Origin: Bugula neritina
Lineage: Eukaryota; Bryozoa; Gymnolaemata; Cheilostomatida; Bugulidae
Assembly: GCA_964035545.1 (NCBI GenBank)
Contig: OZ037768.1
Coordinates: 14,260,175-14,324,174 of the forward strand
Direction of reading: 5' to 3'
DNA: 64,000 nucleotides
Shown: positions 13,905-39,093 of the stretch, piece by piece
Position numbering within the stretch: the stretch's first letter is position 1
Layout: each line of letters starts with the position of its first letter
Translations under genes and position numbers: made by a program
The notes under the pieces: model-generated
Told to the model about the DNA's origin: nothing
Database searches by the model: none
The model's input: only the letters and a program-made list of their open reading frames with translations

Positions 13905-14008
13905 AGTGCCCCAGTCACGCACGACAAGTTCAGCCTTTTCATATGCTGACACAGTCAAGGGTAGACGGACTAGTAGCTCTCTATAATAATTATCCTCAAA
14001 CATTGAGT

Positions 14009-15054
14009 ATGTCTTTGAATACCAAGTTACGAGGTAAGTCCACACAGACCTAGTATTCCTAGCTATAAAAACGGGTCTATCATCAGTTAACTCTGGCTTA
14101 GTTGATTCAACTGAGTTAAAGTTGCTGGTAACTATGTCAACTGTGAACGACGACGAAAGTGTAGTGATGTCTGACGATTTTCTTGATTTTGAGCTGGATG
14201 CTATGGTTCTCAGTCAATCTACACGTTTGCCTTCAGTCTCCCGAGTGCCTTACAAAAGAGTTCGTGACTCTCAGGCTATGAACAGCCGATTTTCACAAGA
14301 ATTATGTTGTAAAGATCCGAGTCGATCTAACAATAATTCTGCTCTTTTAGAAGCCACTCGATCTCCGCTACCTGATGGCATGCCACCAATGAAGATAGCT
14401 TGGAACGAGGGCCTCCTTCCGGAACGGTCACTCGCTCCTGTTACCAGTAGACGACTACCACCTGCTCTCAGAGCCAAATCTTGTTGGACCTCGTCACGCA
14501 CGAAGCAAACTGTTTTGAAGGCTCGAGGAGACATTGACAACACCATGTGCTGCCTCTGTCAGCAGCATTTTACTACTCCCCAGAGGCTGCGAGCTCACAT
14601 GCCGCAGCACTTCATCACCACCTTCTGCCCATGCGGGGAGTATAGCTACCACCGGGATTATATCCTGCGACATCAAAGAACCATGAACTGTTTTATAGGA
14701 CACCTATTCGGGGTAGACCAGCCTTCTTATTCCCAGTTTCTGGATCTGATCAAACCCTTCGTACAGGATCCGAGCCGGTTGGAACGATTGTTGCAGGGGT
14801 TTCCAGCTCTTCGGGCTATTACTCAGGGCCCGACTCCTAAACCCCCATGCTATAAGAAGCAAAAATCTCGGTCCTACCTCAATCGCTGGCAGTTTTCCCG
14901 GGTAGTGTTACAGCGGGTGTACACTAACCCCGTCTCTGACGAACATATCCGGCGTTCTCTCTCCAGATTCCGTCCTCTCCAGCTCGCAGCGGAAAAGACG
15001 CAGAAGCTCCCCTTCTCCACTCTGCGCACCTTCTACAGCCAGGAGTATACGTGA
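14009..15054 (+). CDS. ORF3 of element 1: spliced C2H2/C2HC zinc-finger protein
   Basis: Predicted exons are 14009-14033 (ATG plus 25 nt in all, MSLNTKLR, donor GAG|GTAAGT) and 14102-15054 (acceptor GGCTTAG), joining in phase 1 to give 325 residues. The second exon also has its own downstream ATGs. Features in order: an acidic N-terminus (DDESVVMSDDFLDFELD), a conserved ELCCKDPSRSNNNS block, a classical C2H2 finger (C-x2-C-x12-H-x3-H, CCLCQQHF...HMPQH), an adjacent C-x-C-x12-H-x5-C unit (CPCGEYSY...C), then SYSQFLDLIKPFV and a basic C-terminus. The element 3 protein is closely similar. No signal peptide or membrane segment is seen, so it is not an envelope protein. A DNA- or RNA-binding accessory role is inference. 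The frame is open although gag and pol of this copy are wrecked. Confidence 0.7.
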
Positions 15055-15140
15055 AGTAGAGGACCGTATATCTTCCTTAGAAGGCAAGTTGCAGAGGCTC
15101 ACTCCCCAAGTCTTGGCTGCGACCAGCAAACTGCAGTTAC
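15035..15140 (+). pseudogene. Out-of-frame coiled-coil tail of ORF3, element 1
   Basis: In the +1 frame just before the ORF3 stop the sequence reads REVEDRISSLEGKLQRLTPQ and onward. This aligns with NVEERLVRLQAEFTQLAPD in element 2 and REVEARANELVHEVYRLAPR in element 3. The heptad-like leucines suggest a coiled coil. Confidence 0.6.
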
Positions 15141-15426
15141 TTACCCCCATGTATATCTGTGTGACATTTGTCTCTCTCATACATGTCTGTTACGTATATC
15201 TGTGTGGTATCATCCCCTTTCGTGACATGTCTCCTGTGTATATGTCTGTGTGATACTTGTTCTTTCCATGGCAGTTGCTATATTATACTGCGTTTCTTGA
15301 CTTTTGTTAATATTCATTCGATATATTATTATTATATTAGTTGTGTATGTACATGCACTTTTTTTCATTCTTTATTTTATACATTTATTACAATTTTATA
15401 CACTTCCTCCCCATTTCTGAATTTAT

Positions 15427-15457
15427 CAGAAAGTGGGCTTCCTGCTGGAGGGGGTGG
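15427..15457 (+). other. Polypurine tract with upstream hairpin, element 1
   Basis: CAGAAAGTGGGCTTCCTGCTGGAGGGGGTGG ends directly at the 3' LTR, in two parts: CAGAAAGTGGGCTTCCTGC and TGGAGGGGGTGG. The AGAAAG...CTT(T/C)CT inverted repeat and GCTGG(A/G)GGGGG recur in all three elements. Confidence 0.75.
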
Positions 15458-16249
15458 TGTAATGGTTGTCGGAAAAAGGAGTCCTCCTGACCCCTGCTGA
15501 ACATTGGTCTAGATATATTATAGTTCTGCTAGTTGTGACGTTTGCCCCTAGTCTTCCCGTTTTGCATACGGCAGACAGCGTGGACTGGTATATAATACTG
15601 TGAAGCTGTTCTCCAATCAGCGTAGACTAAAGCACCTGACCTAACCTTTATAAACAGTACCTTCCGGAGTGCACAGTAGAGCTGGCTAGACTAGTAACTA
15701 GATAGTTAACCTTCGTATTCTTGTGCCCTTGTCTTTTGATCAACTAATGTGAAGCTTTTCTTAATTATATCTTGCTTATAAAATATATATACTTCCTCAC
15801 GTTCCTGATCATTGGTTTGGTTGATTACATAACCTCCATGTGATGCAGTAAGCCTAGGGCCACACGGTGCGTATTTCCGCATGCGAAAATTGAAATCACA
15901 AATAGCAAAGGTGTCCACTGCGCGCGTTGAGAAAACCTTCGCACTTGTCGCTCTGCATTCTCAACGCAAGTGCGAATCGTCTCTGTCGTCGTCACCTAAT
16001 TGGCTGATAGTTATTCAGCGACCCAACTTCTTTATTTTAGTGCTACATTCCAGTAAATTGCGTTTTATTGAAAGCGAGTGCGATTTAAAAATGAAAGCTT
16101 TATTTATCAAGCATCAGTGATGCTACAGTGGACACCTTTGCTACTTGTGATTTCAATTTTCGCATGCGAAAATACGCCCCGTGTGGCCCTAGGCTTATTG
16201 ACAACATACAAAACAGACCCACAAAGCTATAGTTCTGAAAACTATAGCA
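15458..16249 (+). repeat. 3' LTR of element 1, split by a MITE
   Basis: 15458-15851 and 16195-16249 together equal the 5' LTR. The interruption is a 343-bp terminal-inverted-repeat element. The LTR ends ATAGCA, followed by the ATAT duplication. Confidence 0.9.
15852..16194 (+). mobile_element. 343-bp MITE, copy 1 (Harbinger-like, TWA target)
   Basis: Terminal inverted repeats of about 69 bp begin GCCTAGGGCCACACGG and contain CGCATGCG. Flanks are TAA at 15849-15851 and TTA at 16195-16197, and removing the element restores the LTR. The 3-bp TWA target and GGGCCACACGG-type end fit PIF/Harbinger MITEs. No coding capacity. Confidence 0.85.
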
Positions 16250-16719
16250 ATATGTAGGTCAGGAATATGTAGGCCATGAACATTATGCTTCTAAAAGTAT
16301 GTTGTTTGAAAAGGAATATGTTCAAACCTCTTAAGATCGGAATTAATTGATCAATTAGACTTTCTGTCCAGGCGCACAAATTAAGTCAGACTTCAGAAAA
16401 AAAATTACATAGGTAACTATGAAAAATGTAACGTTGTTTGAGAGTTTAGACTTTAGACCTCTAAGTTAAGTACAGGCAGTGAGATTTTTATAATTAGGTC
16501 TTTTGATAGAATGGGGAGAATGGTTTTACAAAACTTTGACTTGTGAGCAGCTATAGAGGAGAAACTGCTGGACAGAACTCAACTAAAGCATTGCATGATA
16601 TTTTATGATTACCTTACAATAGATGTTGCTATCTAAATAGGACTGTTATCTTGTTTTTGAATAATAGCCTATATGCCTATTATCTAACGCTAATTGTGTC
16701 TTCTAAAATTAATATATAT

Positions 16720-17010
16720 ATATATATTAATAGGCTCTCATACAAGTTCAATTATAAATATATTATTTTCCTTTTATGTTTATGATTATTGACTTAGACT
16801 TTAGAGGTGCAGCAAGCAAATCTCATCCATATTTCATTTCTATAATAATTATGTAAAAAAGCTAGAGTTCCTACACACATGCTTGTACGTGAATGTGTGT
16901 ATGTATGTGTGTATGTATGTGTGTACATGTGTGCATGTGTCACCAATGTATGTACATGGGAGGTATGTGTGTATGTATGATGTACATGTGTGTAAGCATG
17001 TATGCATGTC
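16720..17010. repeat. Simple repeats: (TA)n and GTATGTATGTGT tract
   Basis: A short (TA)n near 16712-16728 and a long GTGTGTATGTATG/CATGTGTG tract from about 16890 to 17010. Open frames on both strands here are repeat artefacts. Confidence 0.85.
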
Positions 17011-17658
17011 TGCAGCATGTTATAGCTTGTAGCATTTACGAGAACTTAGCAGAAATTTTGAGAATCATTATCGTACACATGCACTATTTAGTGCAGGGCT
17101 GTCCAGCAGGAGGCCTTATTGTAGTGAATTTCACAATTCACTATATTATGTGTGGGTCGACTTAAACAAAGCCACTACACCAGGTTGTTGACGTTATGAT
17201 AAATTTATTTATCACAAGATACAAGAAGTTTTATTTACTGCTAACATGAATAGAAACGATTACATAATAAGTGAGCTTTATACACAACTACTCTAAATGA
17301 AGTCCCAAGCTGCTCTGCCCGGCTAGCTACTCAGTGCGCTTCCACTACGAGTAGCTAGCTCCACCTGCTATCAATTATAATGTCAGTCCTGATTGGTGGT
17401 TACTAGTGGTGCCACTGTTGGCCATAGCTACAAGTCGCAAGAGGTCGATGTAGTCGATCTCCACAATAGCATACCATATAGAGTCGACCCTTTCGATATA
17501 ATACTAACAATAATGACACCACTAAAATCCATTACATTATGGCCGGATGTGGTCCCAGCCTACATTTATATGCATAGCCCTCAAAAGCATAACAAGTACA
17601 ATCATTTTGCACACTATTATGAATTAAAGTGGAAAACCACTATTTAAATGCCTTATAC
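17011..17658. other. Unassigned intergenic stretch upstream of element 2
   Basis: About 650 bases with moderate GC (GGCTAGCTACTC...GTAGCTAGCTCC inverted words near 17322-17360) but no gene. Part may be an old retroelement end, since AGCAGGAGGCC precedes TGTAGTG at 17122. I could not find a matching second end. Confidence 0.3.
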
Positions 17659-17662
17659 ATAC

Positions 17663-18015
17663 TGTAGTGAGTAGTGCAAAGTACAAATACGGGAATCGCC
17701 CTCTCTCTACTCTTGGAATACTAAGACCCTTATGTAGCAACCAATTAGCAGCTCCGGAAGATATGCTTCCGATTCCCGTGACACTTCCCGGGTTATTAAC
17801 ATTATATCACGTTGTTGTAAGCGGAGGCTTGAAGTAGTAACATGTGTTAGTAGTTGACTGATGTATAGGATAATTTGATGTGATGTTTGTTTTATGCTTT
17901 ATTGTGGATAATAAATATAATTACTCGACAGCTACCCTAGTAATTACTAGCAGAATAACCAACTAACTATACGCAAGTAGATAACTCACGCTCAGTAATT
18001 GCACAAATTACTACA
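17663..18015 (+). repeat. 5' LTR of element 2 (353 bp)
   Basis: Begins TGTAGTGAG and ends TTACTACA. An AATAAA signal lies at 17910-17915. The sequence is unrelated to the LTRs of elements 1 and 3 by eye. Confidence 0.95.
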
Positions 18016-18050
18016 GTGGTGGCAGCGGTGGGATCTTGCGTATAGCAGTC

Positions 18051-19001
18051 ATGGCAGAAGACGGCACGGAGCTACCCATTCCACTGAATGAAGGTGAGAG
18101 AGATAATGTTGATATATCTGTGGAACCAGTGGTGTTAGATGAAGAAGTGAGAATTCCTAGAGAGCATGGTGAAGACAGATACCGGCTGAAAGCGCCCACC
18201 TTCACAGGCGAAGAAGCAGTGGAGCAGTTTATCCAAGAATTCCAAGATGTGATGGAGATTGCACAGTGGCCACCAACGGTGGCGTTGCTCAAGCTCAGGA
18301 TGGCGCTGACGGACAAGGCTAAGCCGTATGGAGCGGGACCTGACATAGACGGAATCTTTGCTTCTCTGCGGGCCCGCTTTGGCATCTCCCCCATAGATGC
18401 GCGGGCCCGTCTACAAAGGATGCGGCGTGATCCTCACACGTCGCTACAAGAGCACGCTGCCACGGTGTACCCACTAGCGCAGATCGCGTTCCGCGATCTG
18501 CCTCCAGTACACCGTGAGAGGTATACTTATGATGCCTTCGTGCAGTCCATCAACGACTTGGGGCTCCACCATCAATTCCAAGCGAGGGGAGTCACCACGG
18601 TCGAAGATGCACTTGCGGTGGGAGAAGCCTACCTCATGGCGACTCATATGCACCGCAACCGCGTGGCCTCCCGCCAGGTGACCACGGAGCACATTACTGC
18701 TCATGCCGAACCAAACGCGGAACCCTCCGCGGTGGCTAATGTGAACCAGATGTCACTAGCGTCAAAAGTCGCACAGATGACTGACATGCTAGATAAACTG
18801 GTCGCCACATTAGCTCCCCCAAGCCAGGTAGATACTGCCCGTGAGCCTTGCGGGCCGCAGGTACAATCACCAGGCATGGGGCACAACTTCTGCTGGGGAT
18901 GCGGAAGGCCAGGACATTTCCAGAGGAACTGCCCTCAACTCCCACAAGGGTTAAACTACCACGGCCCGCAGATGTTCCCACCTCCTGCGGGCCGTCTGTA
19001 A
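18051..19001 (+). CDS. gag of element 2, intact
   Basis: I take the start as ATG at 18051 (MAEDGTELPIPL), 17 nt after the primer site, because it aligns with the gag start of element 1. The product is 316 residues. Residues about 45-190 form a capsid-like region: YRLKAPTFTGEEAVEQFIQE, then FGISPIDARARLQRM, then LQEHAATVYPLAQIAFRDLP, then FVQSINDLGLHHQF. A CCHC zinc knuckle (C-x2-C-x4-H-x4-C, CWGCGRPGHFQRNC) lies about 25 residues before the stop and would bind RNA. The slippery heptamer G TTA AAC is in the gag frame at 18950-18956. No stop or frameshift is seen, unlike the other two copies. Confidence 0.9.
   Translation: MAEDGTELPIPLNEGERDNVDISVEPVVLDEEVRIPREHGEDRYRLKAPTFTGEEAVEQFIQEFQDVMEIAQWPPTVALLKLRMALTDKAKPYGAGPDIDGIFASLRARFGISPIDARARLQRMRRDPHTSLQEHAATVYPLAQIAFRDLPPVHRERYTYDAFVQSINDLGLHHQFQARGVTTVEDALAVGEAYLMATHMHRNRVASRQVTTEHITAHAEPNAEPSAVANVNQMSLASKVAQMTDMLDKLVATLAPPSQVDTAREPCGPQVQSPGMGHNFCWGCGRPGHFQRNCPQLPQGLNYHGPQMFPPPAGRL
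18950..18994 (+). promoter_or_regulatory. Predicted -1 ribosomal frameshift signal, element 2
   Basis: G TTA AAC (18950-18956), spacer TACCA, stem arm CGGCCCGCAG (18962-18971), 13-nt loop, arm CTGCGGGCCG (18985-18994). The A-T pair replaces the G-C pair found in element 3, a compensatory change. Slipping back one base enters the protease frame directly (LPRPADVPTS). Confidence 0.8.
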
Positions 19002-20203
19002 ATCACCCAGGGAGGCCCGCGCGTCTGTCGCCCCGCTGGGCGCCGCGCGGAGATGCTGTGAAGTGGCGACCCCCGCGGCAAGTAGGCTCAAGCCACTCGC
19101 CGCCTGGGTCCTCTACGCCACTCCAACACCAACACGGAGCCGGCAGACGGTTGACCTCAGAGCCTGCGAGGGAAACGGTACAGGCGCCACAAGGCGTACC
19201 GCCCCAACCTCGGCAGCTGGTCAATAGTCGTCACCAACCGTGGACCCCTCGACCCACAGCGAGGGAGGTGCAACCACGGCACACACAGCTGCAGCCACAC
19301 GGAAGTAGCTACTTCCTGCCAGGAAAGCTAGCCGGCAAGCCTGCCAACTTCCTCCTGGACTCAGGCTGCACCACCAACCTCCTTAGCCGTCAATTCTTTG
19401 ACACCCTCAGCGCTAAGGTCAAGGACGGGTTGGCACCGTATGAGGGGGATCATGGCACCCTGGCAGACGGGTCGTGCATTCCCTTCTACGGCATTATTGA
19501 GCTAACTGGTTACGTCCGTAACCAGGCCATCCAAGAGACGTTTATCGTCGGGCAGCTCAACGAGGATGCTATCCTCGGGATGCCATTCTTACAACGACAC
19601 GGATGTCGCATCGATTTCAGTAAATCTGCGATGATCATGGGCGACAGGGAGCTCGCTTGTGTCGATAAGTTTGGTCGTCCTCTAGCGGGAGCAGTGCAGG
19701 TAGTACGAAGCTGTACTATACCAGGCCACTCCCGGGCTACCGTCCGCTGCAAGGTAGACGGTGGCCAAACCTCTAAGTTGGGAGTTGTCGAAAGTACGCA
19801 CTCGAGAGTCCAACTTGCCCATAGCTTTAGCCGGCTTACGGGACAAGGAGAGATCTCAGTGCAGTGTGTCAACCCCTCCTCAGAGACAGTAGACCTACCA
19901 CCCAGATCCATGCTGGGCCGCTTCCATCCTGTCCAGGAGGAAGCCATTGGGCCGTCGTCGGGAGCTACGACGGAAGGTCCTCAGCAGAGCCCGTCTCAAG
20001 GGCGGAGGACCGTCCCAACCCACGCCTCCCATCCTCCAGGGACGCGTGGCTGCACAGGCAACGGAAAGCGCCAGGCTATGGCTAGGTTGCCACATGGGTA
20101 CAGTGAGGCGTTCCGCCACACAGACCACGACGCCCGCCTAAATAGAGCAGGCTGTCGTGAGGTACCACGGGCGGCGAAGACCGCCCCTGCTCAGCCACTC
20201 TAA
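18956..20203 (+). CDS. Protease-containing pol N-terminus of element 2, RT deleted
   Basis: This frame is entered by -1 frameshifting from gag. A basic proline-rich linker leads to an aspartic protease domain with active site LLDSGCTTNLLSR (about 19354-19392), then FIVGQLNEDAILGMPFL and IDFSKSAMIMGDRELACVDK, matching the PR and post-PR region of element 3. After PR the frame continues to KTAPAQPL and a stop at 20203. In element 3 the equivalent point (VPVRQPTRRL) enters RT. Here the sequence jumps to the pre-integrase linker (TPPEAVQSLRAKPV), so about 1.4 kb of RT and RNase H is absent. A protease without RT is unusual and fits a non-autonomous derivative that may still process Gag. Confidence 0.8.
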   Translation, partial: LPRPADVPTSCGPSVNHPGRPARLSPRWAPRGDAVKWRPPRQVGSSHSPPGSSTPLQHQHGAGRRLTSEPARETVQAPQGVPPQPRQLVNSRHQPWTPRPTAREVQPRHTQLQPHGSSYFLPGKLAGKPANFLLDSGCTTNLLSRQFFDTLSAKVKDGLAPYEGDHGTLADGSCIPFYGIIELTGYVRNQAIQETFIVGQLNEDAILGMPFLQRHGCRIDFSKSAMIMGDRELACVDKFGRPLAGAVQVVRSCTIPGHSRATVRCKVDGGQTSKLGVVESTHSRVQLAHSFSRLTGQGEISVQCVNPSSETVDLPPRSMLGRFHPVQEEAIGPSSGATTEGPQQSPSQGRRTVPTHASHPPGTRGCTGNGKRQAMARLPHGYSEAFRHTDHDARLNRAGCREVPRAAKTAPAQPL

Positions 20204-20205
20204 CA

Positions 20206-20745
20206 GAGGGCTGACACGCCCCCGGAGGCTGTCCAGAGCCTCCGCGCCAAACCTGTATAGGCTGGTAACGTTAGGGAGCTGCCGAAGCTCCAGGAAAGCC
20301 TTCCTGGGGTGGTAGCCGACGTGTACCGAGCGAAACAGGAAGGGCGACGACCCAGTAGTAAACAACGGCGACAGGGATGCGCCGAGTTACGGCTGTACTG
20401 TCAACGTTGGAGCTCTTTGCGGGTCGGGCCAGATGGTCTGCTGACCATGACCTTGGCCGCCAACAGCAGACAGCCAGCCAGGAAGAGGGCTGTCTGCCCA
20501 GTTGCCATCTGCCGGAAGTTGATACAAGACACCCACGAGGAGACTCACGGAGGAGTCCAAGAGGTGGTCACCAAGCTACAACTCCGGTGGTACTGGCCCA
20601 ACATGGAGCGGGATATCCGGCGCAGAGTTTGACGGTGCAAAGTTTGCCAGACCAACAAGCATAGCCGTCTCCCTGGTGAAGCGGGGCGGCAGACGCATTG
20701 TGCGAGAAGGTCTTGGCAAGCGGAGACTGTCGTCCTGGCCGGAAA
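20206..20745 (+). pseudogene. Integrase zinc-binding remnant of element 2
   Basis: Contains LQESLPGVVADVYRAKQEG and the HHCC-type domain (THEETHGG...LRWYWPNMERDI...CKVCQTNKH), with a stop replacing a codon at 20630 and another at 20258. Just after GEAGR the DDE catalytic core is missing and the sequence continues with the pol tail. It cannot be a working integrase. Confidence 0.85.
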
Positions 20746-20752
20746 CACCTCC

Positions 20753-21641
20753 ATGACACGTCAGGAAGACTTGGCGAGGCGAGAAAGGCCACTTCCGTCC
20801 TTGAAAGTGTGCCCACCGCCCCCAACGTCAAGCCTGCCATCACCACCACTTCCGGAACCGGAAACGGGTCCAGAAGTGCAAAAACCCCCCGTGGGAGGGG
20901 CTCCGCAAGGAGATACCGACGTAGGAACAACCGTCACAAACAGGCTGGAAAAATCACCCGTGAGACATAACAGTCCACGGGTGAGCACACCGCCTCCCAC
21001 AGTGACGACGCCTCCAGGACCACACACTAGGCAACTTCCAGCGTGTCTCAGAGACTGTGTACGTGACCGCGGTATAAGCCTAGGGCCACACGGTGCGTAT
21101 TTTCGCATGCGAAAATTAAAATCACAAGTAGCAAAGGTGTCCACTGTAGCGTCAGTGATGCGTGATAAATAAAGCTTTCATTTTTAAATCGCACTCGCTT
21201 TCAATAAAACGCAATTTGCTGGAATATAGCACTAAATAAAGAAATTGGGCTCGCTGAATAACTACCAGCCAATTAGGTGACGACGACAGAGACGGTTCGC
21301 ACTTGCGTTGAAAATGCAGAGCGACAAGTGCGAATGTTTTCTCAACGCGCACAGTGGACACCTTTGCTACTCGCGATTTCAATTTTCGCATGCGAAAATA
21401 CGCACCGTGTGGCCCTAAGCTAAGCGGCAGTAACGAAAGTCTAGAGAGGCCTCGCATGGGAAAACAGGCAAAGAAACGTGGGAGTTGTGAACACCACGGA
21501 AATCTCAACTTTTGCCTCGGCGGAATCTCACACGAGATTCATCCGCTGGAAGTGAAAAGCCCTAGTCACGTTTCACAACCACGCTGTTCGGTCTTTTCCT
21601 ACGTTGATGCAGTCAAGAGTAGACGTGCCACTAAACAGTAA
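20753..21641 (+). pseudogene. pol C-terminal tail of element 2, split by a MITE
   Basis: The proline-rich tail (SLPSPPLPEPETGPEVQKPP) corresponds to the tails of elements 1 and 3. It continues as RQLPACLRDCVRD and is interrupted at 21077 by the MITE. It resumes at 21421 with a Cys/His motif (SCEHHGNLNFCLGGI) and ends CSVFSYVDAVKSRRATKQ. Its conservation in all copies suggests function, but the reading frame is broken here. Confidence 0.75.
21078..21420 (-). mobile_element. 343-bp MITE, copy 2, opposite orientation
   Basis: Exactly the same length as copy 1 at 15852-16194, but its interior is reversed. The target duplication TAA is perfect (21075-21077 and 21421-21423). The ends are GCCTAGGG and CCCTAAGC. 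Confidence 0.9.
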
Positions 21642-21665
21642 TCATTTACCGCTCTCATTCCAAAA

Positions 21666-22428
21666 TGTCTTACTATTCTGGATCGAAGGGTGAGTTAATT
21701 ATGTTTTTGGTACGATAACTAGACTGCATCAGTCAGCTTTAGCTACACTAGCTAGCGAGCTGGAGATTCGATAATGATAAACAGTGGTGGGAATACACGT
21801 CGACTTTGATTTTAAATAATCTGCCATAGCGAGTGTGTTCTCCATCAACTATTCATTAGCCTGAATCTCACGAGTGTAACTGAACAGAGTACCGGTCAGG
21901 CTGTACACGCCGACGGTACCTCAGTGTATAACCTTTAACACTGCTACTCTTTCAGATCACACTCGAGTGACCACCTCCCGGTCACGGGACCAGCCAACCT
22001 CTCTGCCTATGGAAGAGGAACCTGTAATGGAGAATGGCATACCCGTGGTGCTCCGTCGACGACACCGCTGGGTGTCACCCACGACGGAAAGGAGAATTGA
22101 GGAAGCCTGGGGACCCAGTGGACCCCACCGAACCTGCCAGGTCTGCTTTGAGGAGTGCCCGTCACACCGCTCCCTGCGTCTACATGTAGACGCCCATTTT
22201 CTACTCCACTTCTGCCCATGCGGGTTCCACGACGTATACCCGTATCCCGTGACAGTCCATAAGCTGAGCTGTTTCGCCGGAGAGAACCATACTGTCGATG
22301 AGGACAGTTTCCCCCAATACCTGGATATCATCAAGCCAGTCATCAGGAAGGCTATCACCCTGGCCGCACTAGCGTCAGGGTTCCAAGTACTGCTGTTATC
22401 CGCCCGCCATAAGTCCCCTATGGTTTAG
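21666..22428 (+). CDS. ORF3 of element 2: spliced zinc-finger protein, short form
   Basis: Predicted exons are 21666-21689 or 21690 (ATG, MSYYSGSK; donor AAGG|GTGAGT with the first intron base at 21690 or 21691) and 21956-22428 (acceptor CTACTCTTTCAG). Counting 25 coding nt in exon 1 as in the other copies gives a phase-1 join (D-HTRVTTSRSR) and 165 residues. The C2H2 finger is CQVC...HVDAH (C-x2-C-x12-H-x3-H), followed by CPCGFHD...HKLSC (C-x-C-x12-H-x3-C) and SFPQYLDIIKPVI. Sequence identity to elements 1 and 3 is modest, but every zinc ligand is kept. A TAG ends the frame. The same frame stays open afterwards to 22722 and encodes the coiled-coil segment. Confidence 0.7.
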
Positions 22429-22722
22429 GGCCTGTCTCCTACCCCCGTCAACCCTAGCAACACCCCCGAAGTAGAAGAAACAACAATACCCCCTCTAACA
22501 GAGACTACTACAACCCCGCCAAGGCCTAGCCAGCTGGCTAATGTAGAAGAGCGGCTTGTAAGACTACAAGCCGAGTTCACACAACTTGCCCCTGACTTGC
22601 TGGATACGACGACAGGTCTATACCAGTTAAAGGACTCAGTGGGGCGACTGAAGAGGCGGCTACGTGCCCGACAGGCTCGACACAGAGCACGATCGCTACA
22701 AGAGTCAGAGTCCACCCAATGA
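22429..22722 (+). pseudogene. ORF3 coiled-coil extension after an in-frame TAG, element 2
   Basis: In the ORF3 frame after the amber codon the sequence reads through a Pro/Thr-rich linker into NVEERLVRLQAEFTQLAPDL and LYQLKDSVGRLKRRLRA, ending with TGA. Leucines and basic residues fall at heptad-like spacing. The matching segments in elements 1 and 3 are also just beyond the ORF3 stop. Confidence 0.65.
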
Positions 22723-22985
22723 GTATGCCTGGGGTAGGCACCTTCGTTGAGCTGTAACTCGTCTGGAAAGTGACGAGTGCTCCGACATTGGCCCGCGTGC
22801 TGGTAAGCACCCTCTCTCTTTATAGCTGACTAGATGTGTGTGTTCGATCACCCTGTTGTCTTCTGTATGTAAATGTTGTCGTACTCAACTATTTCTCTTC
22901 TTACTCTTTGTGGGTTTACTTATGTATGTTTTTCTTTTTGGATTATTGTATAGTTTTTCATTATGTGTTTTTTTTATTGTGTTAT

Positions 22986-23020
22986 CAGAAAGTAGGGCTT
23001 TCTGCTGGGGGGGGGGGCGG
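22986..23020 (+). other. Polypurine tract with upstream hairpin, element 2
   Basis: CAGAAAGTAGGGCTTTCTGC is followed by a long G run and CGG directly before the 3' LTR. AGAAAG pairs with CTTTCT. Confidence 0.75.
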
Positions 23021-23373
23021 TGTAGTGAGTAGTGCAAAGTACAAATACGGGAATCGCCCTCTCTCTACTCTTGGAATACTAAGACCCTTATGTAGCAACC
23101 AATTAGCAGCTCCGGAAGATATGCTTCCGATTCACGTGACACTTCCCGGGTTATTAACATTATATCACGTTGTTGTAAGCGGAGGCTTGAAGTAGTAACA
23201 TGTGTTAGTAGTTGACTGATGTATAGGATAATTTGATGTGATGTTTGTTTTATGCTTTATTGTGGATAATAAATATAATTACTCGACAGCTACCCTAGTA
23301 ATTACTAGCAGAATAACCAACTAACTATACGCAAGTAGATAACTCACGCTCAGTAATTGCACAAATTACTACA
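23021..23373 (+). repeat. 3' LTR of element 2 (353 bp)
   Basis: Same length as the 5' LTR with one substitution. Followed by ATAC. Confidence 0.95.
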
Positions 23374-23377
23374 ATAC

Positions 23378-26057: not shown

Positions 26058-26091
26058 TCTAGGTGAACCTCATAGCATTTGATGATAAAGG

Positions 26092-29000
26092 ATGAGACGT
26101 AGGTGGAAATCTCTACTTTCTGAGAGTTTGGTGCATTTAGCTGTAGTACTTAGCTTGCTTCGTACTGACTTGCGAGTATATCTCAGAAGATATTCACATC
26201 ATCCAGAGGTACAACAAGCACTGCTCGGACATTCTGTTGGTTTGCAGTTATCAAATAATCATCATCAAAGTTTGTATCCCTCCCATAAGTATGTTGAGGA
26301 TGGCGATTATATTTTGAATGAAATCAATAGGCTAACCAGGTCACCATTTCATGATCAAAGATTTGAAATTAATTCTCATGGCACAGTATCAGCATGGCTT
26401 CTTACAGAGGATCAGTCATCCTGTTCTTCAAGTCCACCAGCTGCTGGTGGTTCGACTGAGAATGAGCTGAGTGTACAGGTATGCTGGAGGTTTTATTTAT
26501 TTATCATTTGTGTAATTTCCAAACATTAGCTGTAAATACAGCAGCTGTAGATCAGTTGTGCTGTCAAAAATCAATTGCTGTCTTTGCTAAAACATGTGGG
26601 GGGGGGTAATTAATATACATTGTACTTTATGTTATAGTATTTTAATGTATGCTCCTGTTTTATTCACCTTATGCTAACCTATGTGTTACTATATAAGTAC
26701 ATATAGAGTAACTGAATATATGTATAAAACATTTAAATATAATTACAAACTCTTATGACTTGTAATGTTTTGTTTACCATTGGTGTAAGTATTTGCTGAA
26801 GAAAATTTTTGAAAACTCAAATTAAGACAAATACTTAGTCTGTATAGGAAGTCAGCAAAACTATTGTTTGAATTTTAGTAATTTTTCTAATTTGATAGAT
26901 AATTGATCTTACAAGTATTTTGTTAAATAATTCTATCTGGTCACTGATGCATGTTTTGGCTGTGAGTTTATCCTGGTAAAATAGTTTAGCCAGTGTATGT
27001 TTTTCTACTCTTGAAATTTGCAGGATGTTGAGTTAATAGAACGATTATGGAAGGAAGACTTGGAGTCAGGGGTTAGCCACAGTGCCATTGAATGCAGTCC
27101 CAAGGCCTTGGTGAGCAGCAGATTAGATTAAAGACTTTCAAATATCTGCATAGTTGAATTAGTTTTATTCTTACTATGATGAGCAAGAAAAAAGCACCAA
27201 GTTCAAGCTGAATTATTTAACTTTAGGTCTAATTAAATTTGTGTTTGATAGGCTGACACCTATCCAGACTTTATGGCTGAAGACACTAATGATGTTGATG
27301 TGCCATTCCCTGCAGACTTTTTTGGAGATAGCAGGGGTATTCCATTGACAGGTTAGTTGAGAATTGCTTGAAACAGCACTAAGGTTGTGCTCACTGAGAG
27401 CAGTGGGAGGGGGGGGGCTGGGGTTACAAGCACTGCACTTAATGACCCCCAACTTTGTGCTGTTGCAGGTTAGTCACTCACTAATTATATTTGTGCATCA
27501 TCTGCCTTTGCCTGATTAAACCTGCCTTATCAAAGTTGGCAGTATTTCCATTGGGTATTTCTGGCATCCAAACTGATTTGTAACTCACAGCTACCTTAAT
27601 CAAGTGTTCCTAACAAATAAATCATAAGTTCCAATAAGATTCTGATCATGACACATGAAGCTTTCATCAGCTGGCATTTTAGCTGGTATATTATGTAATG
27701 GTGCAGCCCCCTTTTTATTTTCATTAGGCAATACCTTTTAAATGTGTGACTACTAGTACGTTTTAGAATTTCATAGGGTGTTGGCTGTTGATAAAACACA
27801 TAATGTTGTATTATATAATCACATCACTCAATATATGTTTTGTATAGAAAAATATATCATTAATATAATATAAAGCATGCTTTGTGTCAATACAGTTTAT
27901 AAATCTCCACTAATGCATATTTTGACTCGACTGATTTGCTTTGTTTATACAGTAGACCTATCAAATGCAGCTGCGAGACCACACCCACCCTACAACACTC
28001 AGTCCTCTCTGCAACGTGACCTGCTGGATTTAAGTGCTCTGTCTGGGTCATCTCAAGTCTCTCCATTGCCAAATTATAATACTTCAACCAATCATTTCAT
28101 GTGGCAGCCAACAATTGATGAACCGCCTAATAACAATATTTTGCAAGAAAATTTTTATCCCAACAATACAGGTAGTTGTTCAAGTATATTATTATTATCG
28201 CTAAGCTATGCATACTGTATTACTTCATGCACTGACAATTGGTCACTATTATTTGTAATCTACTATAAACTCATCAGAAGTGACAAGTTTGAAGTGCCAG
28301 TTAAGTAAGTTATGTATATATATTTGTATGACTCAAGATGGCAATGGAAGCTATAAGAATAACTCGTTCCAGTAGTATACTTGCAATCTACATTGGCAGG
28401 ACTATACAAATTGCTTGTTCACTTTTAGTTTCCATTCTTTATTATTAGCAGTTTGAATGTTTAATAATTTTTGTGTTAGATCTTCCTTGGGAAATCAGCG
28501 ATTCAGAAATTGAACCTGGATTTCGTTCAGAAATTGAATCTGGATTCTTAGAAGAAACAGCCTTTGATAATGATGTCTTCAGAGATCCAATTTACTCAAG
28601 TTTGCAGCCACCGTTAAATATTCTACTTGATGATATGGATGTAGAGTTTGATTTAAGTTCAGTAGATGATTTGGGCAAGTTGTGGGATGTTAGTGGCAGC
28701 ATAAGTGGAGATTCAGCCGTTTCTTTGACAGATAGCCCTCAGCATGTAAGTCTTATAGCATATTGTAGATAACTACACGCACTCACAGCAATCTCTCCAT
28801 GTCCACTCTGCTCCCACAGATCTATGCAAACTACTGCACTCAATCATCCATAACTGAAGCTGCTGATAGAACCATTCCACTCACACCTTCTTGATTATGT
28901 ATTCACAATATATGTATTTATTACACACATACTACTGTATTTACCAATCACATTGTTTGTAATATCACACTTGCCACACCTATATTGCCAGAGCAAATAT

Positions 29001-31549
29001 TTTGTATTACTGGAACCAAATTTACTCGAATTATGGTTGTGCTCCCTGCATCACAAGGGTTATAACTGTTGACAAATTCAAAATTGTGACATAACCAGAA
29101 GCAAAATAACTCAGTTATTATTAATGCAAGCTGACTGCTATTTTTGCTAGACACGCCATTTGAATCTTGTAAGGAAAAGTTTTGTTGATTCTCACCATTG
29201 GTATCAGTTGTCCCAACAGATGTAATTGTTCAATTTATATTTCGAGAACCAGTTTTACCAGTTTTTTAAAAATGGTGAATGTTTTATTAGCTAGAAATGC
29301 AAATAACTAGACTCGCCTTTCTAGCATTGATCAAGTTTTGTAACTTTGCACATGTTTTGTTTCGTTTCGTTGCTGTGAATGTTCGATGCCTTTTATATAA
29401 AAAGTGTTTTGAGTATTTACCTCCAAAAGGAGGCTTGATGGCAGATCTCAATCCATTTCAGCTGACAGCCGAGAAAGTGAAGCTGGTAGAAAATTAAAAT
29501 TTTTCATTGATATTCTTAGGTATCTGAACAGTCTATCACTTTCTCTTCCTAGCTTTTAAACTAGATTATAAAACAGTCTCAGTGAATCTAGTTGCTGATT
29601 CATTGGGGAGAGTCAGCAAGTTGTCCCCCCTCTCTCCTTTGACACCAATAACAATATTTTTCAGAGTAATACAAAGCCAGTTTTGGTTCTTGTTTTCATT
29701 TCTAGCATTAGTTAATTGAATTAACTTTAGCAAGATACAACTGGTTACAATAATGAAAACATAAGCTGCTCCCAGAAAATGTTTTGCAGTGTTTTGGTTG
29801 GTCTGAGTCAAGCCCTAAAATTGTTACTAGTACTATATTATATCGTAGTAGGTGAGCTTGTGCAGTTTTTTATATAATACACTGGTGGGATGTGCATGCC
29901 AGCTCTATACATGTATTATGTTGAAACTTATCATTAATAATCCATGTTATACAAAAATCTTAGATATATTTCAAATATGTATAACAATTACTTGTGTGAT
30001 ATATACAGACATGTGTAGTTTGTTTATGTGGATGAATGCAATTAAATATATTATATCTTTAGAGCTGGGTAGACCCATTGTCTGACATCAGCAGTGAAAA
30101 TTACTCCATCTCTGATGATCTGTTAGGATTAGAAGATGGAGCTACAGGTTATAGTGAAACTAAACAAGAGGCCTACTATGATAATGGCTTTTTTGATTTT
30201 GAAGCTTATTCTCAGCCAACAAAGTCCGATAAGAGTGCGATAATGCATGACCATACTTATGGTGCTCCTCCAGGAGGCCAGCCACATGTCCGTAAAATGG
30301 ACATTAAGGTAAATTCTAGCCTATTATTTGTTTTGAGTGCGATACATGTAGTATTCCATATTTGAAAACAATACAAGGGCTTTTTATAAAAGTTGCCTGA
30401 AATTAAACCTTTGTTGCCTAAGCTATTGTGCACTTTATCAAATTTTTCTATTTATGATTAGTCTATAGTTCTGTGTAGAGTTATCCATATACATAATGTA
30501 TGTTATAATTTTTTAGACTACTAAAGTACCCAGTAGAGGGTTGGTTCATGATGAAGCTATGCGCAAAAGGTTGAATATTCCCTTTTCTGTTGATGCTATC
30601 ATAAACATGCCTTTAGACCAGTTTAACTCCCTTATAAAAAAACATCAGCTTACATCAAAGCAAACTACCCTAGTAAAAGATATTAGAAGGCGTGGCAAGA
30701 ATAAGGTATTCGATTAATATTTTGATAGTCATCATTTGCTACTAAGAAAATCTCATAAACAAGTTTTGTGGTAGTTGTTGGGAGTTATGTTCTTGTTTGT
30801 GGAAAAAAGCATGAAGTGACAGCAAAAATAAGATTTAAAGCCAACTAAATTGTCACATTTAAAGATGCTGAAATTCTGTTCTGTGCAGTTAAAAAATTAA
30901 CATTGAATGGTATGTAGTTTTTTTAAACCAGTCTTGTAAATTTTGAGTAATGATACACATTTTAACCAAGTTTTTTATTGGCTATTTGCTTATTTGTGCT
31001 GACTACAAACTTTCTGTTTTTTATGAAGTTAAAAATAAGGTTTAAACATAGTGATAATTATGTGCCTTGCTCATGAAAACAGAAACAATCCAAAGTTGTT
31101 TTCTTTAAAAGAAAATTGTTCTCCATTGCTCACCTTTGGTCACATTCAACTTGTCACTACAATAAGTAGTCAACAAAATTATTTTACTATTTCTCCTATT
31201 GATTATGTTTGTGATATTTTAGATGGCTGCCCAAAATTGTCGAGAGAAAAGAGTGGGTGCATATTCTGAAATGGAAACTGAAGTTGAATCGCTACAGTCT
31301 AAACGAGATGTTCTGCAACAAAAGAAAACTCTCTTGTTAAATAAGTCAACAGAACTCAGAAAGCACATAGACATTATGTCTGCGGAGATATTTCGTACCC
31401 TTCGTGATGAAAATGGTGTTCCTTATGACAACACTCAGTTTAGTCTAGAAGTTGGTGCGAATGGGGAAATTGAACTAGTATCCACCAATCAATCGTCTCG
31501 AAAATCTCAAAACTCAAAAAAGAGAGACAGTAGCAAGCGAAGGCGTTAA
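26092..31549 (+). CDS. NFE2L1: CNC-bZIP transcription factor, NRF1 (NFE2L1)-like, eight exons
   Basis: CNC factors bind antioxidant-response elements with small Maf partners. NRF1-type members are ER-anchored and switch on proteasome genes. Exons: 26092-26478, 27024-27110, 27252-27351, 27953-28171, 28480-28745, 30063-30308, 30517-30705, 31223-31549. All are GT/AG with matching phases, giving 606 residues. Residues about 10-32 (ESLVHLAVVLSLLRTDLRVY) resemble the NRF1 N-terminal ER anchor, and VSAWLLTEDQ resembles its EVNAWLVHRD. Exon 2 (DVELIERLWKEDLESGVS) matches the Neh2 DLG-type element. Acidic exons 3-6 include a DSAVSLTDSP degron-like stretch and HDHTYGAPP. The CNC domain (RKRLNIPFSVDAIINMP) runs into the basic region (DIRRRGKNKMAAQNCREKR) and leucine zipper, then RDENGVPYDNTQFSLE, and a basic tail. 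No clear ETGE motif is visible. Confidence 0.92.
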
Positions 31550-31840
31550 ATATCTAACCAAGATAGTTTTTATTTTGTGAACAATATCAGGCTGGTGTTG
31601 AATCTGATGTTCTATTTTGTATATAAATGTATAATATTATATGTTTCATTATTATTATCATTATTATTATTGTGAGGGTTCCTGCCATTCTAATCTTCAT
31701 ACTAAACCCTATTACATTGCCAATCACAATGTCTATTATACTTTCATGCTCAAGTTGAGAGACTTAAATTAAGCATATTTTATTATCGGTTTTGTGTTAC
31801 TTGTTTATGTGTCTCACTTGACAGTTACATTGTAATTTGT

Positions 31841-31846
31841 AATAAA
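31841..31846 (+). terminator. Poly(A) signal of the CNC-bZIP gene
   Basis: AATAAA about 290 nt after the stop codon. The interval 31550-32490 is 3' untranslated and intergenic sequence with no further gene seen. Confidence 0.6.
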
Positions 31847-32490
31847 ATTATAGTCAATGAATCACCAGTGAAATAATCTTCTGTTGGACATGACAATATA
31901 TGGTATCTGCGATTGATGGTGTTGTACTATTTAAAGCTACTTTGGGTGGTCCTAAAACTGGTCAAGTGAATATTCACATACCTAGTCAATAGGTCTGTGG
32001 GTATTCTTAGGTGCAGGCACTGTCAAAACCACCAACAGTGCTTAGTACAATTGCATGGTCCCTCCCTACTTCATTTGGTAGATGGCAGTTGGCTTATGAA
32101 ACGTTTGTCTGCACGCAACGATGGTACTGGATTGCTTGGTAGCAGTAGCAGGTGGATAAACCTGACAGCTGACTATACTTGAAAGACCAAGTGTAAGGCA
32201 GCATTGACTAGTAGTTTTACTTTGTTTATTAAGTTTACTTCATCACATTGAATTCTGTTTACTTACAAAAAGTTGGGTTAAGAATCCATAACAGAATGAC
32301 CGTTCAATCATTCAGACAGAAACCTACTCCACCTTGCTGTCAAAACTTCATGAATTACTTCCGACAAGTACGATATAAAGTAAACTTGGTATTTGCTTAA
32401 AGTCTGGGGCAAAATGGTTGATTTGAGTTCATATTTGTGAGATATTGTCTTAAGATACTTTTAAAACTAGAAATTGTCAACTAAACATAT

Positions 32491-32792
32491 TATGTTTTCC
32501 AGAATTAGGGTAGATGTGCAACCAAGAGAGTCTGCTTACTACTAGAGAGACTTCACCGTGATAAGTCGAGTAGATGTTGTTATATTTCGATACAAGAATA
32601 CATAATAATAAAGTTATACAACAGTTAAAAATACACGCATCTATTTAGTTTACTACACTATCTTCAACTGGGCTAGTAGCGCGAAGCTACTACTATTACT
32701 CATGAGCAGCCTAGCTAATTGGTTAATACATTGTTCCGGGTCAATACGCAACCTTGCGTATTGTGTTACTGGTAGCTCCACGAGCCACCACA
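32491..32792 (-). repeat. 3' LTR of element 3 (302 bp)
   Basis: In element orientation it begins TGTGGTGGCTCG and ends GGAAAACATA. Confidence 0.95.
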
Positions 32793-32823
32793 CTGCCCCC
32801 TCCAGCAGAAAGCCCTCTTTCTG
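32793..32823 (-). other. Polypurine tract with hairpin, element 3
   Basis: Minus strand: CAGAAAGAGGGCTTTCTGC then TGGAGGGGGCAG, directly before the LTR, as in the other two copies. Confidence 0.75.
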
Positions 32824-33069
32824 ATAAAATATAATTCACATAAAAAAACGTATACTTCGTTGGGCTGAGAGAGGACAATATAAAAGTATATACAAAAACC
32901 AACTGATTAGATATACAAGTATATATATAAAAAAAATATGCACAATATGTAATATGTAAAAGAAAGTCCTATTTACATGTAGAGTACGTGCCACCATAAC
33001 GGTAGGGAATGCCACAGAGAGGTAGGGGAAGAGTAGTATGGAGTTGGAGATAGACTCATGTCAATCGTG

Positions 33070-33185
33070 GGCCGCCCGCTTCATGCGTTTAATAGACTCC
33101 TGTAGATACTTGAGTTCACTGGATGCAGCATGCACACGCGGGGCCAGTCTATACACTTCATGCACTAGTTCGTTTGCCCTAGCTT
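33070..33185 (-). pseudogene. Out-of-frame coiled-coil tail of ORF3, element 3
   Basis: One frame away from ORF3 the minus strand encodes REVEARANELVHEVYRLAPR then ELKYLQESIKRMKRAAHD and a stop. It aligns with the corresponding segments of elements 1 and 2. The frame offset relative to ORF3 differs from that in element 1. Confidence 0.6.
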
Positions 33186-34189
33186 CTACTTCACGTAAGT
33201 TGCGGGCCAGACGGGACGACGAGAGAAAGTCTGCTGTCTGTGCCTTTTTCGTTCTGAAGACGGAAGTGGAGGAGGGAGTGTATACGCCTTCGTGTCTACC
33301 CTCTGTAGTACGACACGGGGAAGTGTATGCGGTTGGCGTAGAGGACTGTGAGGTGGAGAGTTAGTTGATTTTGTAGGCTTATCCATGATTTCAGAGATGA
33401 TGGGTCGAGGGGAGGGAAAGCCTTGTTCCAGGCGAGACAGCCGAGCTGGGTCGGTGATGAGGGGTCTGATGGCGTTGAGGAATGCGGGATATGATGATTC
33501 GTCTACTTCGTAGACGTGTCCTTGAAAGCACTGCATAGTGTGTTGGTGACGCAGTAGATAATCACGATTGTAACTATATTCTCCGCAGGGGCAGAACGTG
33601 GTGATGTAATGCTGCGGCAAGTGTACTTTCAGCCTGCGGTGGGTTGTAAACCGCTGCTGACATAGGTGACATTCGCGGTTACTGTCACCTCCTCTACGAG
33701 TCTTAATCTCTTTCTCCTTGGCAGGGGTAATCCAGTTAGAGGTTGCTTCCAACTGGGGTGGCAGTTGTCTGGTTGTGGAAGTTGTTGGGGCCGGCTCTGG
33801 GTCCCACGCCATCTCTAGAGAAGGCATGCCCGGAGAGACGGGCGCGAGTGTGTCTACAAAAGTAGAATTATTGTTAGATCGCGGTGGATCTTTACAACAT
33901 AATTCTAGTGACTGTCGACTGTTACTAGCCTGAGAGTCACAACTTTTGGAATGCACTCGAGGAACCAGTGAATCATGTGTGGACTGACCAAGAACAGTGT
34001 CTAGCTCCAGGTCTAACAGACCGTCGGCCATTACAGTGTCCTCATCGTCATTCACATGAAACGTGGTTCCCAGTAATTCTGATTCAATCTGATGAATTAG
34101 TTCAGAATTTACTGGCATCGAGCCCGTTTCCATGAATAGGAATACAAGACTTATACTGGCTTACCTGTGAACTCGGTATTAATGTCCAT
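33186..34189 (-). CDS. ORF3 of element 3: spliced C2H2/C2HC zinc-finger protein
   Basis: Predicted exons are 34165-34189 (ATG, MDINTEFT, exactly 25 nt, donor CACAG|GTAAGC) and 33186-34078 (acceptor GAATCAG), joining in phase 1 to give 305 residues. Without splicing a 315-residue frame starts at 34133. Features: acidic N-terminus (VNDDEDTVMADGLLDLELD), LELCCKDPPRSNNNS, C2H2 finger C-x2-C-x12-H-x3-H (CHLCQQRF...HLPQH), then C-x-C-x12-H-x5-C (CPCGEYSYN...C), then SSYPAFLNAIRPLI, VVLQRVDTKAYT and a basic end. It is about as similar to the element 1 protein as the pol proteins are, which suggests constraint. No membrane segment is seen. Confidence 0.75.
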
Positions 34190-34789
34190 ACTCAACGTTC
34201 TTGGTAAGATTGGAGCTGGTTGTGAGATACGTCTGCCTTTGGCGATGTCAGCGTAAGAAAGGGCTGAGCATCGTTTCTGAGGCACGAGGTCGGAACTATT
34301 TGCTTTACGCGCATTAATTCCTCCCACTATTCCGCCCTCGCAAAAGTTGATATTTGCGTGGGGTTCACAACTCCAACATTTTATCGTACGGTTTTCCCCT
34401 AGACTTTCATGCCTGCCGCTTTTAATGCAGTCACATACGAAGTCTTTTAAATATGGTGGGGGTTTCCTCGTACGTTGTCCCCGTTCTAGGGGGGGCGACA
34501 CGCTTTCTGGTTTATTAGTAGGGGCCTCTAGTGGCGTCTCTACTTCACCGTTAGCGGTCACTTCTTCTTGTTCTCCGGATGGAGCCCCTCCCTCCGTGGG
34601 GGTTTGCACTTCCGGAACCGGCTCGGTTTCTGGAAGTGGTGGAGTTAGACTTGGCGGCGGCGGGCATGCTTCTGTTGGTAGAAGCTGTCTTTCTTCTCTC
34701 ACCAAGTTTTCTTCCCGCGGTATGACCACTTCATATTCAGGTCCATAGCGCCGTCGCCCGCGCGTTGTCTGCCTCCTGGGCTCCAACAA
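34151..34789 (-). CDS. pol C-terminal tail frame of element 3
   Basis: A proline-rich frame (LEPRRQTTRGRR, SLTPPLPETEPVPEVQTP) that in element 1 is continuous with the integrase GPY/F end. Here a 1-nt difference (GAAGCCCCCC versus GAAGCGCCCCC) puts it in another frame, overlapping pol by 91 nt. It contains RTRKPPPYLKDFVCDC and the Cys/His motif CWSCEPHANINFCEGG, then RCSALSYADIAKGRR. The ORF3 start ATG and splice donor lie inside its last codons in a different frame. Confidence 0.7.
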   Translation of the reverse strand: MLEPRRQTTRGRRRYGPEYEVVIPREENLVREERQLLPTEACPPPPSLTPPLPETEPVPEVQTPTEGGAPSGEQEEVTANGEVETPLEAPTNKPESVSPPLERGQRTRKPPPYLKDFVCDCIKSGRHESLGENRTIKCWSCEPHANINFCEGGIVGGINARKANSSDLVPQKRCSALSYADIAKGRRISQPAPILPRTLSMDINTEFTGKPV

Positions 34790-38439: not shown

Positions 38440-38701
38440 CTAGATTGGTAGGACGGCGAGGGTTTCACCCGTGGTTTACGGGGTTTCCGGCGGCGAGGTT
38501 GGTGCCGGCGGGGTTTGGGGCTCTCCACTGAGCCTTCTGGCTCCATTTCAGTGGCGGGCTCCTCTTCCCGAGGTAACCGGTGGAACCGGTTGGCGAGTGG
38601 CAGGGAGAAGGTACTCGGCCGTTGTGCGGGCCTACTAGTCCTGCGTGGTACCTGCCACTCGGGGGAGTGTTCCGTCGTGTCCCACCATACTCCTTCAGTT
38701 G

Positions 38702-38746
38702 CGGCCCGCGGGGAGGGAGAGCGTCCGCGGGCCGTGACAGTTTAAC
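38702..38746 (-). promoter_or_regulatory. Predicted -1 ribosomal frameshift signal, element 3
   Basis: G TTA AAC (38746-38740) in the gag frame, spacer TGTCA, perfect stem CGGCCCGCGG (38734-38725) with CCGCGGGCCG (38711-38702), 13-nt loop. Confidence 0.8.
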
Positions 38747-39093
38747 GCCCCCTGGTATTGGGGTCGTCCTTGCTGTCTATGGTCTTGACCAGCACTACTC
38801 CAGCCTGGCCCCACAGGTGTTGGGGGCAACCGCAGGGCCTGACCGGGGCCAGCGCCGGCCAGAATTGTTACCAGCTGTCCCAGCATCTCTACCATACGGT
38901 CCACTTCGGCTTCCAGCGGGGGGGCTTCGGGGCCTGTTGTAGCCCTGGCAGCGCTGACTCCAACTACTGGTGGGTTCCGTTGTGCTCGATGCATTTGGGT
39001 AGCCAACAGGTAAGCTTCTCCAGCCTTTAGGGCATCCTCTATCCTGGTTATCCCTTTTGCTCGGAGCTGATGGTGTAGGCCCAGGTCGTTGAG

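Follow-up and report, generated by a model that had tools for sequence, protein, structure and literature searches.

A zinc-finger and coiled-coil third gene of Ty3/Gypsy retrotransposons in Bugula neritina, apparently spliced in some families and fused to Pol in others

Third genes of Ty3/Gypsy retrotransposons that do not encode an envelope (Env) protein have seldom been described and are mostly of unknown use. A 64,000-nt stretch of the Bugula neritina genome (contig OZ037768.1, positions 14,260,175–14,324,174 of the forward strand; hereafter, the window) raises the question of what such a gene encodes, how it is expressed and what it does for its element. Three elements, W1 (8111–15851, + strand), W2 (17663–23373, + strand) and W3 (32490–40458, − strand), each carry an open reading frame (ORF) after pol, and these third ORFs (ORF3) are homologous in all three. 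Comparison with relatives in the genome from which the window comes (G000; 216 Mb, 295 contigs; loci labelled L0xx) and with metagenome proteins (P0xxx) places the same module in three settings within one genome: fused to Pol, as a separate spliced gene, and retained by a non-autonomous family. Natural intron-less copies that seem to have kept transposing add to the comparison, and the role of an accessory protein for a retrotransposon, including whether it acts in cis, becomes accessible to comparison and experiment.

The earlier note on this DNA had described three third ORFs with a common zinc-ligand layout and an SY/SF-xx-F/YL-xx-I-x-P block, all of which were found where it had placed them. 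Each ORF3 opens with a short exon that ends in phase 1 at a consensus donor (the slash marks the exon end): 14009–14033 in W1 (+ strand; GAG/GTAAGT), 21665–21689 in W2 (+ strand; AGG/GTGAGT) and 34165–34189 in W3 (− strand; CAG/GTAAGC), where the frame of the upstream tail stays open through the exon. The donors and the phase agree with the earlier description, the exon being 25 nt counting the ATG; the W2 ATG lies at 21665, not 21666. Among relatives, this exon measures 22, 25 or 28 nt and is 1 modulo 3 in all 11 rows compared, which are related and represent about four lineages.

Exon 2 carries the fingers. It is open over 14087–15054 in W1 (+ strand; fingers 14548–14691) and 33186–34111 in W3 (− strand; fingers 33528–33671), and in W2 it runs to a stop (21956–22428, + strand; fingers 22135–22272) that most listed relatives lack. 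The ORF3 ends given previously are those of decayed copies: the open frames of intact relatives (366 aa for the W3 type, 280 aa for the W2 type) continue into a coiled coil at the C-terminus, which finishes in a basic tail. Matching coiled-coil sequence is present in the window at 15047–15142 in W1 (+ strand, a remnant in a different frame from exon 2), at 22540–22695 in W2 (+ strand, a remnant past the stop) and at 33064–33198 in W3 (− strand, in another frame in this copy and in frame in intact relatives). The small protein predicted from ORF3 has an N-terminus that varies, a conserved core in which helices lie on either side of the two zinc fingers, and a coiled coil that makes up the C-terminal part and ends in basic residues.

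Splicing of all three ORF3s had been proposed, and the proposal is best supported for the 266-nt W2 intron (21690–21955, + strand; GTGAGT...CTTTCAG). The predicted exon 1/exon 2 junction of the W2 type occurs already joined at four places in the genome (one exact match and three that differ at a single position), and that of L050, whose ORF3 is about half identical in protein to the W2 family type, at four places, all exact; reversed-pattern controls for the two junctions returned 0 and 0 genomic matches. In alignments of both types, the intron (266 nt in W2) is missing exactly between donor and acceptor in the intron-less copies, and in the W2 type both flanks are seen to be retained. In six of the eight copies, ORF3 reads without interruption from its own mini-exon ATG through the whole coil (263–270 aa); the remaining two end at 239 and 48. 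These observations support the view that the intron-less copies of the W2 and L050 types are footprints of spliced RNA that was reverse-transcribed and re-inserted. At least two separate intron losses probably took place in the W2 family, as an 84-nt deletion is common to intron-less L051 and L054 and intron-bearing L016 but is absent from L052 and L053. We also considered whether this 84-nt difference, seen 5′ of the junction in L051, L054 and L016, might be a second intron; its presence in intron-bearing L016 led us to reject this. Intron-less copies at different places are 97.2–98.6% alike, suggesting that intron-less elements kept transposing. As a separate observation, parts of the W2-type intron (21690–21955) and of the L047 intron, for example just past the donor, are well conserved across families, perhaps beyond the need of an idle intron.

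For W1 and W3, the case for splicing comes from comparison with relatives, and we consider it likely that ORF3 of this group is spliced as well. A 53-nt interval that opens at the donor and closes with an AG at a homologous place recurs in five families (W1, W3, L044, L045 and L046), giving proposed introns at 14034–14086 (+ strand) in W1 and 34112–34164 (− strand) in W3; decayed L031 lacks the homologous AG, and decayed L029 lacks the mini-exon ATG. Introns of 68 nt (W1) and 86 nt (W3) had been predicted before, but their acceptors are probably wrong, since it is the 53-nt acceptor that keeps its place across these five families. The rival explanation, that the group is unspliced and translated from an ATG within the proposed intron, is rather unlikely in our view, although several findings favour it and weigh against splicing. 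This inner ATG is widely kept (W3, L044, L045 and L046), and most metagenome proteins extending that far upstream begin with it, a frequency biased by the preference of gene callers for ATG; over the seven codons that start with it, substitutions are fewest at the second codon position (0.4, 0.2 and 0.314 by codon position). No intron-less copy of the W1/W3 type was found: genome searches returned no W3-type junction made with either the 53-nt acceptor or that of the earlier note, and a genome search for a mini-exon without the following G returned none for the W3 and L046 types. On the other side, the whole 53-nt interval has much the same level of substitution at each codon position of ORF3 (0.328, 0.324 and 0.322; five rows), without periodicity, in contrast to the next 110 nt in exon 2 (0.255, 0.261 and 0.405; four rows), which display the third-position excess of coding sequence. 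W1 and L029 have ATA in place of the inner ATG. Furthermore, the first residue encoded past the AG is always one of V, D and A, whose codons have only a first-base G in common, in 26/26 usable metagenome proteins (53 proteins, 30 of which matched the search pattern, less four that matched off target at an internal motif).

A second first exon may join the same acceptor. The start of gag runs to a phase-1 donor at 8622–8691 in W1 (+ strand; GAAG/GTGAGC), 18051–18093 in W2 (+ strand; GAAG/GTGAGA) and 40078–40120 in W3 (− strand; GAAG/GTGAGC), and GAAG/GTGAG stands at phase 1 in all four gag starts that were read (W1, W2, W3 and L059). In the metagenome protein P0075, a gag start related to the W2 stretch leads directly and in frame into ORF3 exon 2 at the same acceptor; this is the product expected if the gag donor were spliced to the ORF3 acceptor, as in retroviral subgenomic RNAs. 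As the mini-exon always ends in phase 1 (11/11 rows), both first exons would fit one acceptor. P0075 is one of 112 metagenome proteins with starts examined, many of which are too short to tell, and a pattern search of the genome for the gag start joined to exon 2 returned 0 matches. We also observed that the distance from the stop of the upstream tail to the mini-exon ATG is short (9 nt in L044 and L046, 23 in L049 and 24 in L050), which may point to reinitiation of translation or to avoidance of RNA decay.

Finger 1 fits C2H2 spacing, while finger 2 reads C-x-C-x12-H-x3/5-C; with its C-x-C and final Cys, the pair departs from a tandem of two C-x2-4-C-x12-H-x3-5-H fingers, and no zf-C2H2 model reached its cut-off in hmmscan. 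Over 11 diverse rows, 19 columns are invariant, including seven of the eight zinc ligands; conservation of the remaining ligand, the final His of finger 1, is ≥90%. In the AlphaFold model of L010, both fingers fold as beta-beta-alpha units within a confident core that also contains helices (residues 131–250, pLDDT 92–98 in blocks of ten), and a long C-terminal helix spans residues 317–365; in that of L049, finger 2 has no helix and the C-terminal helix is 62 residues long. In these models, the N-terminus is for the most part predicted with low confidence. A search of solved structures returned weak matches to tandem C2H2 proteins (best E value 8e-5). The proposal that ORF3 is a nucleic-acid-binding accessory protein is compatible with the two predicted beta-beta-alpha fingers. 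The N-terminus before finger 1 is acidic in the W1/W3 group (24 D/E against 9 K/R over 159 residues in the L010 frame) and includes a conserved acidic-hydrophobic stretch, which W2/L050-type ORF3s lack, their N-terminus being about balanced in charge. The usual Kyte-Doolittle cut for a membrane segment is 1.6. The absence of such a segment, as first reported, was borne out by hydropathy, by which no 19-residue window exceeds a mean of 1.55 over 13 ORF3 rows, a peak near that cut. By the hydropathy of these 13 rows, ORF3 shows no sign of the signal peptide and transmembrane anchor of an errantivirus-like env gene.

The gene is abundant and under constraint. Four ORF3 queries gave at least 126, 151, 126 and 150 matches in the genome, in overlapping lists, so the further copies called for by the earlier note number over a hundred as a lower bound; 113 of the 126 best-scoring matches listed for the W3 ORF3 have no internal stop. 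In a database of 5.8 billion proteins, 53 homologues of the W3-type and 59 of the L055-type ORF3 were found, none with a name or a Pfam domain. The dN/dS ratio, another check proposed at the outset, is well below 1 (0.08–0.37 in 17 ORF3 pairs, several of which have dS >1 and are rough; three of the original 20 pairs were dropped because dS was too large to compute). It is 0.10–0.18 across six pairs within the W2 family (L047–L049 and L051–L053) and 0.09 for the intron-less pair L055/L057 (dS 0.73). On these substitution ratios, ORF3 is under purifying selection.

The setting of the module differs between families. In L041, the fingers and coil form the end of a single open frame with reverse transcriptase (RT), integrase and GPY motifs (1432 aa to the locus edge), and L042 has the same arrangement from the integrase onward (integrase domains followed by fingers). 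Listed open frames of Pol-fused copies reach 1998 aa, leaving aside one outlier, an ORF3 match at G000:C2:22724118-22724516 within a 63007-aa open frame that is perhaps a stretch reading N. No chromodomain was listed for the W3 pol (E value up to 1) or for L042 and L061 (E value up to 0.01). L050 combines a W3-like pol end (96% in the GPY piece) with an ORF3 closer to the W2 type (52% to L049, 29% to L010), a combination that points to exchange of the ORF3 module between families. The GPY/F-type integrase C-terminus of W3 finds matches in W1, L050 and L043+L061 and none in W2, L047+L059 or L049+L060. When these last three were read from gag to ORF3, protease (PR) and integrase H2C2 domains were matched, and RT, RNase H (RH), integrase core (rve) and GPY/F were not; L048 is consistent with the same type, its sequence being partial. 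By domain content, the W2 family is non-autonomous yet retains ORF3. The balance seems to us even on whether, within one Ty3/Gypsy clade, the zinc-finger/coil module shuttles between a Pol C-terminal domain and a spliced gene with one phase-1 acceptor and two first exons, and is useful enough for a long-lived parasite lineage devoid of RT and integrase core to keep it.

What, then, might ORF3 do? We propose that it is the third gene of a Ty3/Gypsy clade and acts as a dimeric nucleic-acid-binding accessory factor, an interpretation that, splicing included, we regard as having an equal chance of being right or wrong. Splicing would join a local ATG exon, ending in phase 1, to the exon that encodes the fingers, as the DNA copies of the W2 and L050 types support, and a donor near the gag start may join the same acceptor to yield a retrovirus-like subgenomic mRNA, for which one foreign sequence and donor conservation speak. 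In other families the module would be made, without a splice, as the in-frame C-terminus of Pol. The protein would dimerise via its coil, bind the nucleic acid of its own element in the particle or pre-integration complex and aid nuclear entry or tethering, preferentially for the copy from which it was made. The Pol-fused families point to a function within the particle or integration complex, and the retention of ORF3 in a lineage that borrows RT and integrase suggests a cis benefit on its own RNA or DNA.

Two other roles are the main rivals. In the first, ORF3 made from spliced RNA would bind unspliced genomic RNA in the nucleus and export it past splicing control, in the manner of Rev or of CERV, the third protein of the Caenorhabditis elegans Ty3/Gypsy element Cer1. 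W2/L050-type genomic RNA holds an intron that would be spliced out of some of it, and a cis-acting RNA factor would explain why a non-autonomous family retains ORF3. Cer1 offers a precedent, as described in the available part of that study: CERV stands in the env position, is expressed from a spliced mRNA sharing gag exons and has a cysteine loop needed for RNA export (PMC10309623), and P0075 has the same gag-sharing design. However, the L041/L042-type module at the end of Pol would be made from unspliced RNA that has already been exported, too late for an export factor, and the ORF3 fingers resemble DNA-binding C2H2 pairs, unlike the possible C4 finger described there for CERV (PMC10309623). 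We view an export role as possible but doubtful.

In the second, ORF3 would be a dimeric, sequence-specific DNA-binding protein that activates its own long terminal repeat (LTR) through an acidic N-terminus. The finger pair is of DNA-binding type and is accompanied by a coiled coil, and the acidic-hydrophobic stretch of the W1/W3 group is reminiscent of activation domains. Its absence from W2/L050-type ORF3s argues against this, and an activator working in trans would leave unexplained the retention of the gene in a family living with autonomous relatives; transactivation appears unlikely. The weakest alternative concerns the splicing evidence itself, namely that the intron-less state is the ancestral one and the intron a later gain, in which case these copies would not show splicing: although intron-less and intron-bearing copies diverge somewhat more downstream of the junction than upstream, this is very improbable, since the intron shares its site and similar ends in L047, L049 and L050, whose ORF3s have diverged (60% identity for L049–L047, 51% for L049–L050), the intron-less copies are close to intron-bearing L016 and L050, and repeated loss is far simpler than late gain.

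The elements that harbour these genes are real Ty3/Gypsy elements, as had been claimed, on the strength of their LTR pairs, a common primer-binding site and the Ty3/Gypsy pol domains of W1 and W3. The order PR-RT-RH-integrase is present in W3 and W1 (hmmscan and tblastn) and is not seen in the W2 copy itself, which has neither RT nor integrase core. W1 is decayed but of autonomous type (LTR pieces 8111–8504 and 15458–15851, + strand, 98.2% identity), with PR, RT, RH, H2C2, rve and GPY/F pieces detected by tblastn. W2 is of non-autonomous type, with gag, protease, an integrase H2C2 piece and ORF3 between its LTRs (17663–18015 and 23021–23373, + strand, 99.7% identity). W3 is of autonomous type and has pol domains and an LTR pair (32490–32792 and 40156–40458, − strand, 99.7% identity). 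The primer-binding site is one 18-nt sequence, identical in W1 (8558–8575, + strand), W2 (18017–18034, + strand) and W3 (40135–40152, − strand), which we take to be the complement of the 3′ end of tRNA-Leu.

Several further features of these elements were recorded. A hairpin-like CAGAAAG...CTT(T/C)CTGCTGG precedes the purine-rich tract at the 3′ LTR and is, by eye, conserved in W1, W2 and W3 (approximately 15427–15450, +; 22986–23010, +; 32800–32824, −). In the split-ORF3 families, a conserved peptide is encoded in the post-pol tail; it contains a Cys/His cluster (GSCEHHGNINFC-like) and terminates in an FSYADxVKGRR-like sequence, and lies at ~34220–34385 (−) and ~21478–21641 (+) in the window and also in L044, L046 and L050; it was not seen by eye in L042. 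An insert of ~350 bp resembling a miniature inverted-repeat transposable element breaks the W2 pol tail (21074–21421) and recurs, 93% alike and in inverted orientation, at 15851–16198, where it adjoins the W1 3′ LTR and the W1 LTR match ends (~15851). Target-site preference is clear: the four bases beside the 3′ LTR have a central TA in 26/30 insertions (ATAT in 14, ATAG in six), against a TA background frequency of 0.107. This count read the 3′ flank at L015–L036, L050, L051, L054–L058 and W2 (23374–23377 in the window), and excluded two LTRs leading into the primer-binding site, L052 (46-bp match) and W3 (no clear end). Elsewhere, the window has large inverted repeats at 62656–63598 (arms of 310 nt, 95% complementary; palindrome at ~63217) and a tandem array at 2025–2344 (40-bp step, copies up to 96% alike).

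Among known proteins, the tandem C2H2 proteins in the PDB (ZBTB7A, ZNF217 and Kaiso chains) resemble ORF3 in the spacing of finger 1 and in having two serial beta-beta-alpha fingers, but ORF3 differs in the C-x-C-x12-H-x3/5-C form of finger 2 and scores below Pfam cut-offs; proteins of this type are not known to have conserved flanking helices like those of ORF3. No C2H2 third ORF in a Ty3/Gypsy element was found among the titles and abstract openings searched, and the available passages on CERV, bdelloid, MDG1 and plant ORFs contain neither a C2H2 + C2HC/coiled-coil ORF3 nor an alternation of Pol fusion and splicing. In a paper on Ginger elements, the domains that follow a Gypsy-type integrase in the part available are OTU, Ulp1 and PHD, and a C2H2 finger stands at the integrase N-terminus (PMC2836005). 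Non-env third or extra genes as such are known already, as excerpts of the respective studies describe. The nearest is CERV, which is likewise a non-env-like third protein in the env position, made from a spliced mRNA with its first exons in the gag frame, with a cysteine-rich region and predicted to form a multimer; it has five exons, 517 aa and a possible C4 finger (PMC10309623), whereas the ORF3 described here has two exons and a C2H2 + C2HC core followed by a long coil at the C-terminus, and in some families the module is fused to Pol. The captured ORF3s of bdelloid rotifer LTR elements are also non-env, lie downstream of pol, are in some cases coiled-coil and are said to come from spliced messages, but they fall into GDSL, DEDDy, CC and TM types, and zinc is nowhere mentioned in the main text (PMC5408684). 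The sORF1 and sORF2 of the MDG1 group (412, mdg1 and Stalker) are likewise accessory proteins in Ty3/Gypsy elements that have no env; their non-synonymous rates are low, and sORF1 is nuclear; they differ in lying upstream of gag, in being unspliced and in encoding helix-turn-helix-like and membrane proteins (PMC11952523). Extra ORFs of plant elements also belong among the non-env genes (PMC9289625). Chromoviruses, like the L041/L042-type families, have added a module after the integrase, in their case a chromodomain at the Pol C-terminus (PMC12440569), whereas the module here consists of zinc fingers and a coil, with no chromodomain found, and is a separate ORF in other families. Compared with these accounts, what appears new in the Bugula elements is the C2H2 + C2HC/coiled-coil ORF3 itself and its occurrence in both Pol-fused and spliced settings.

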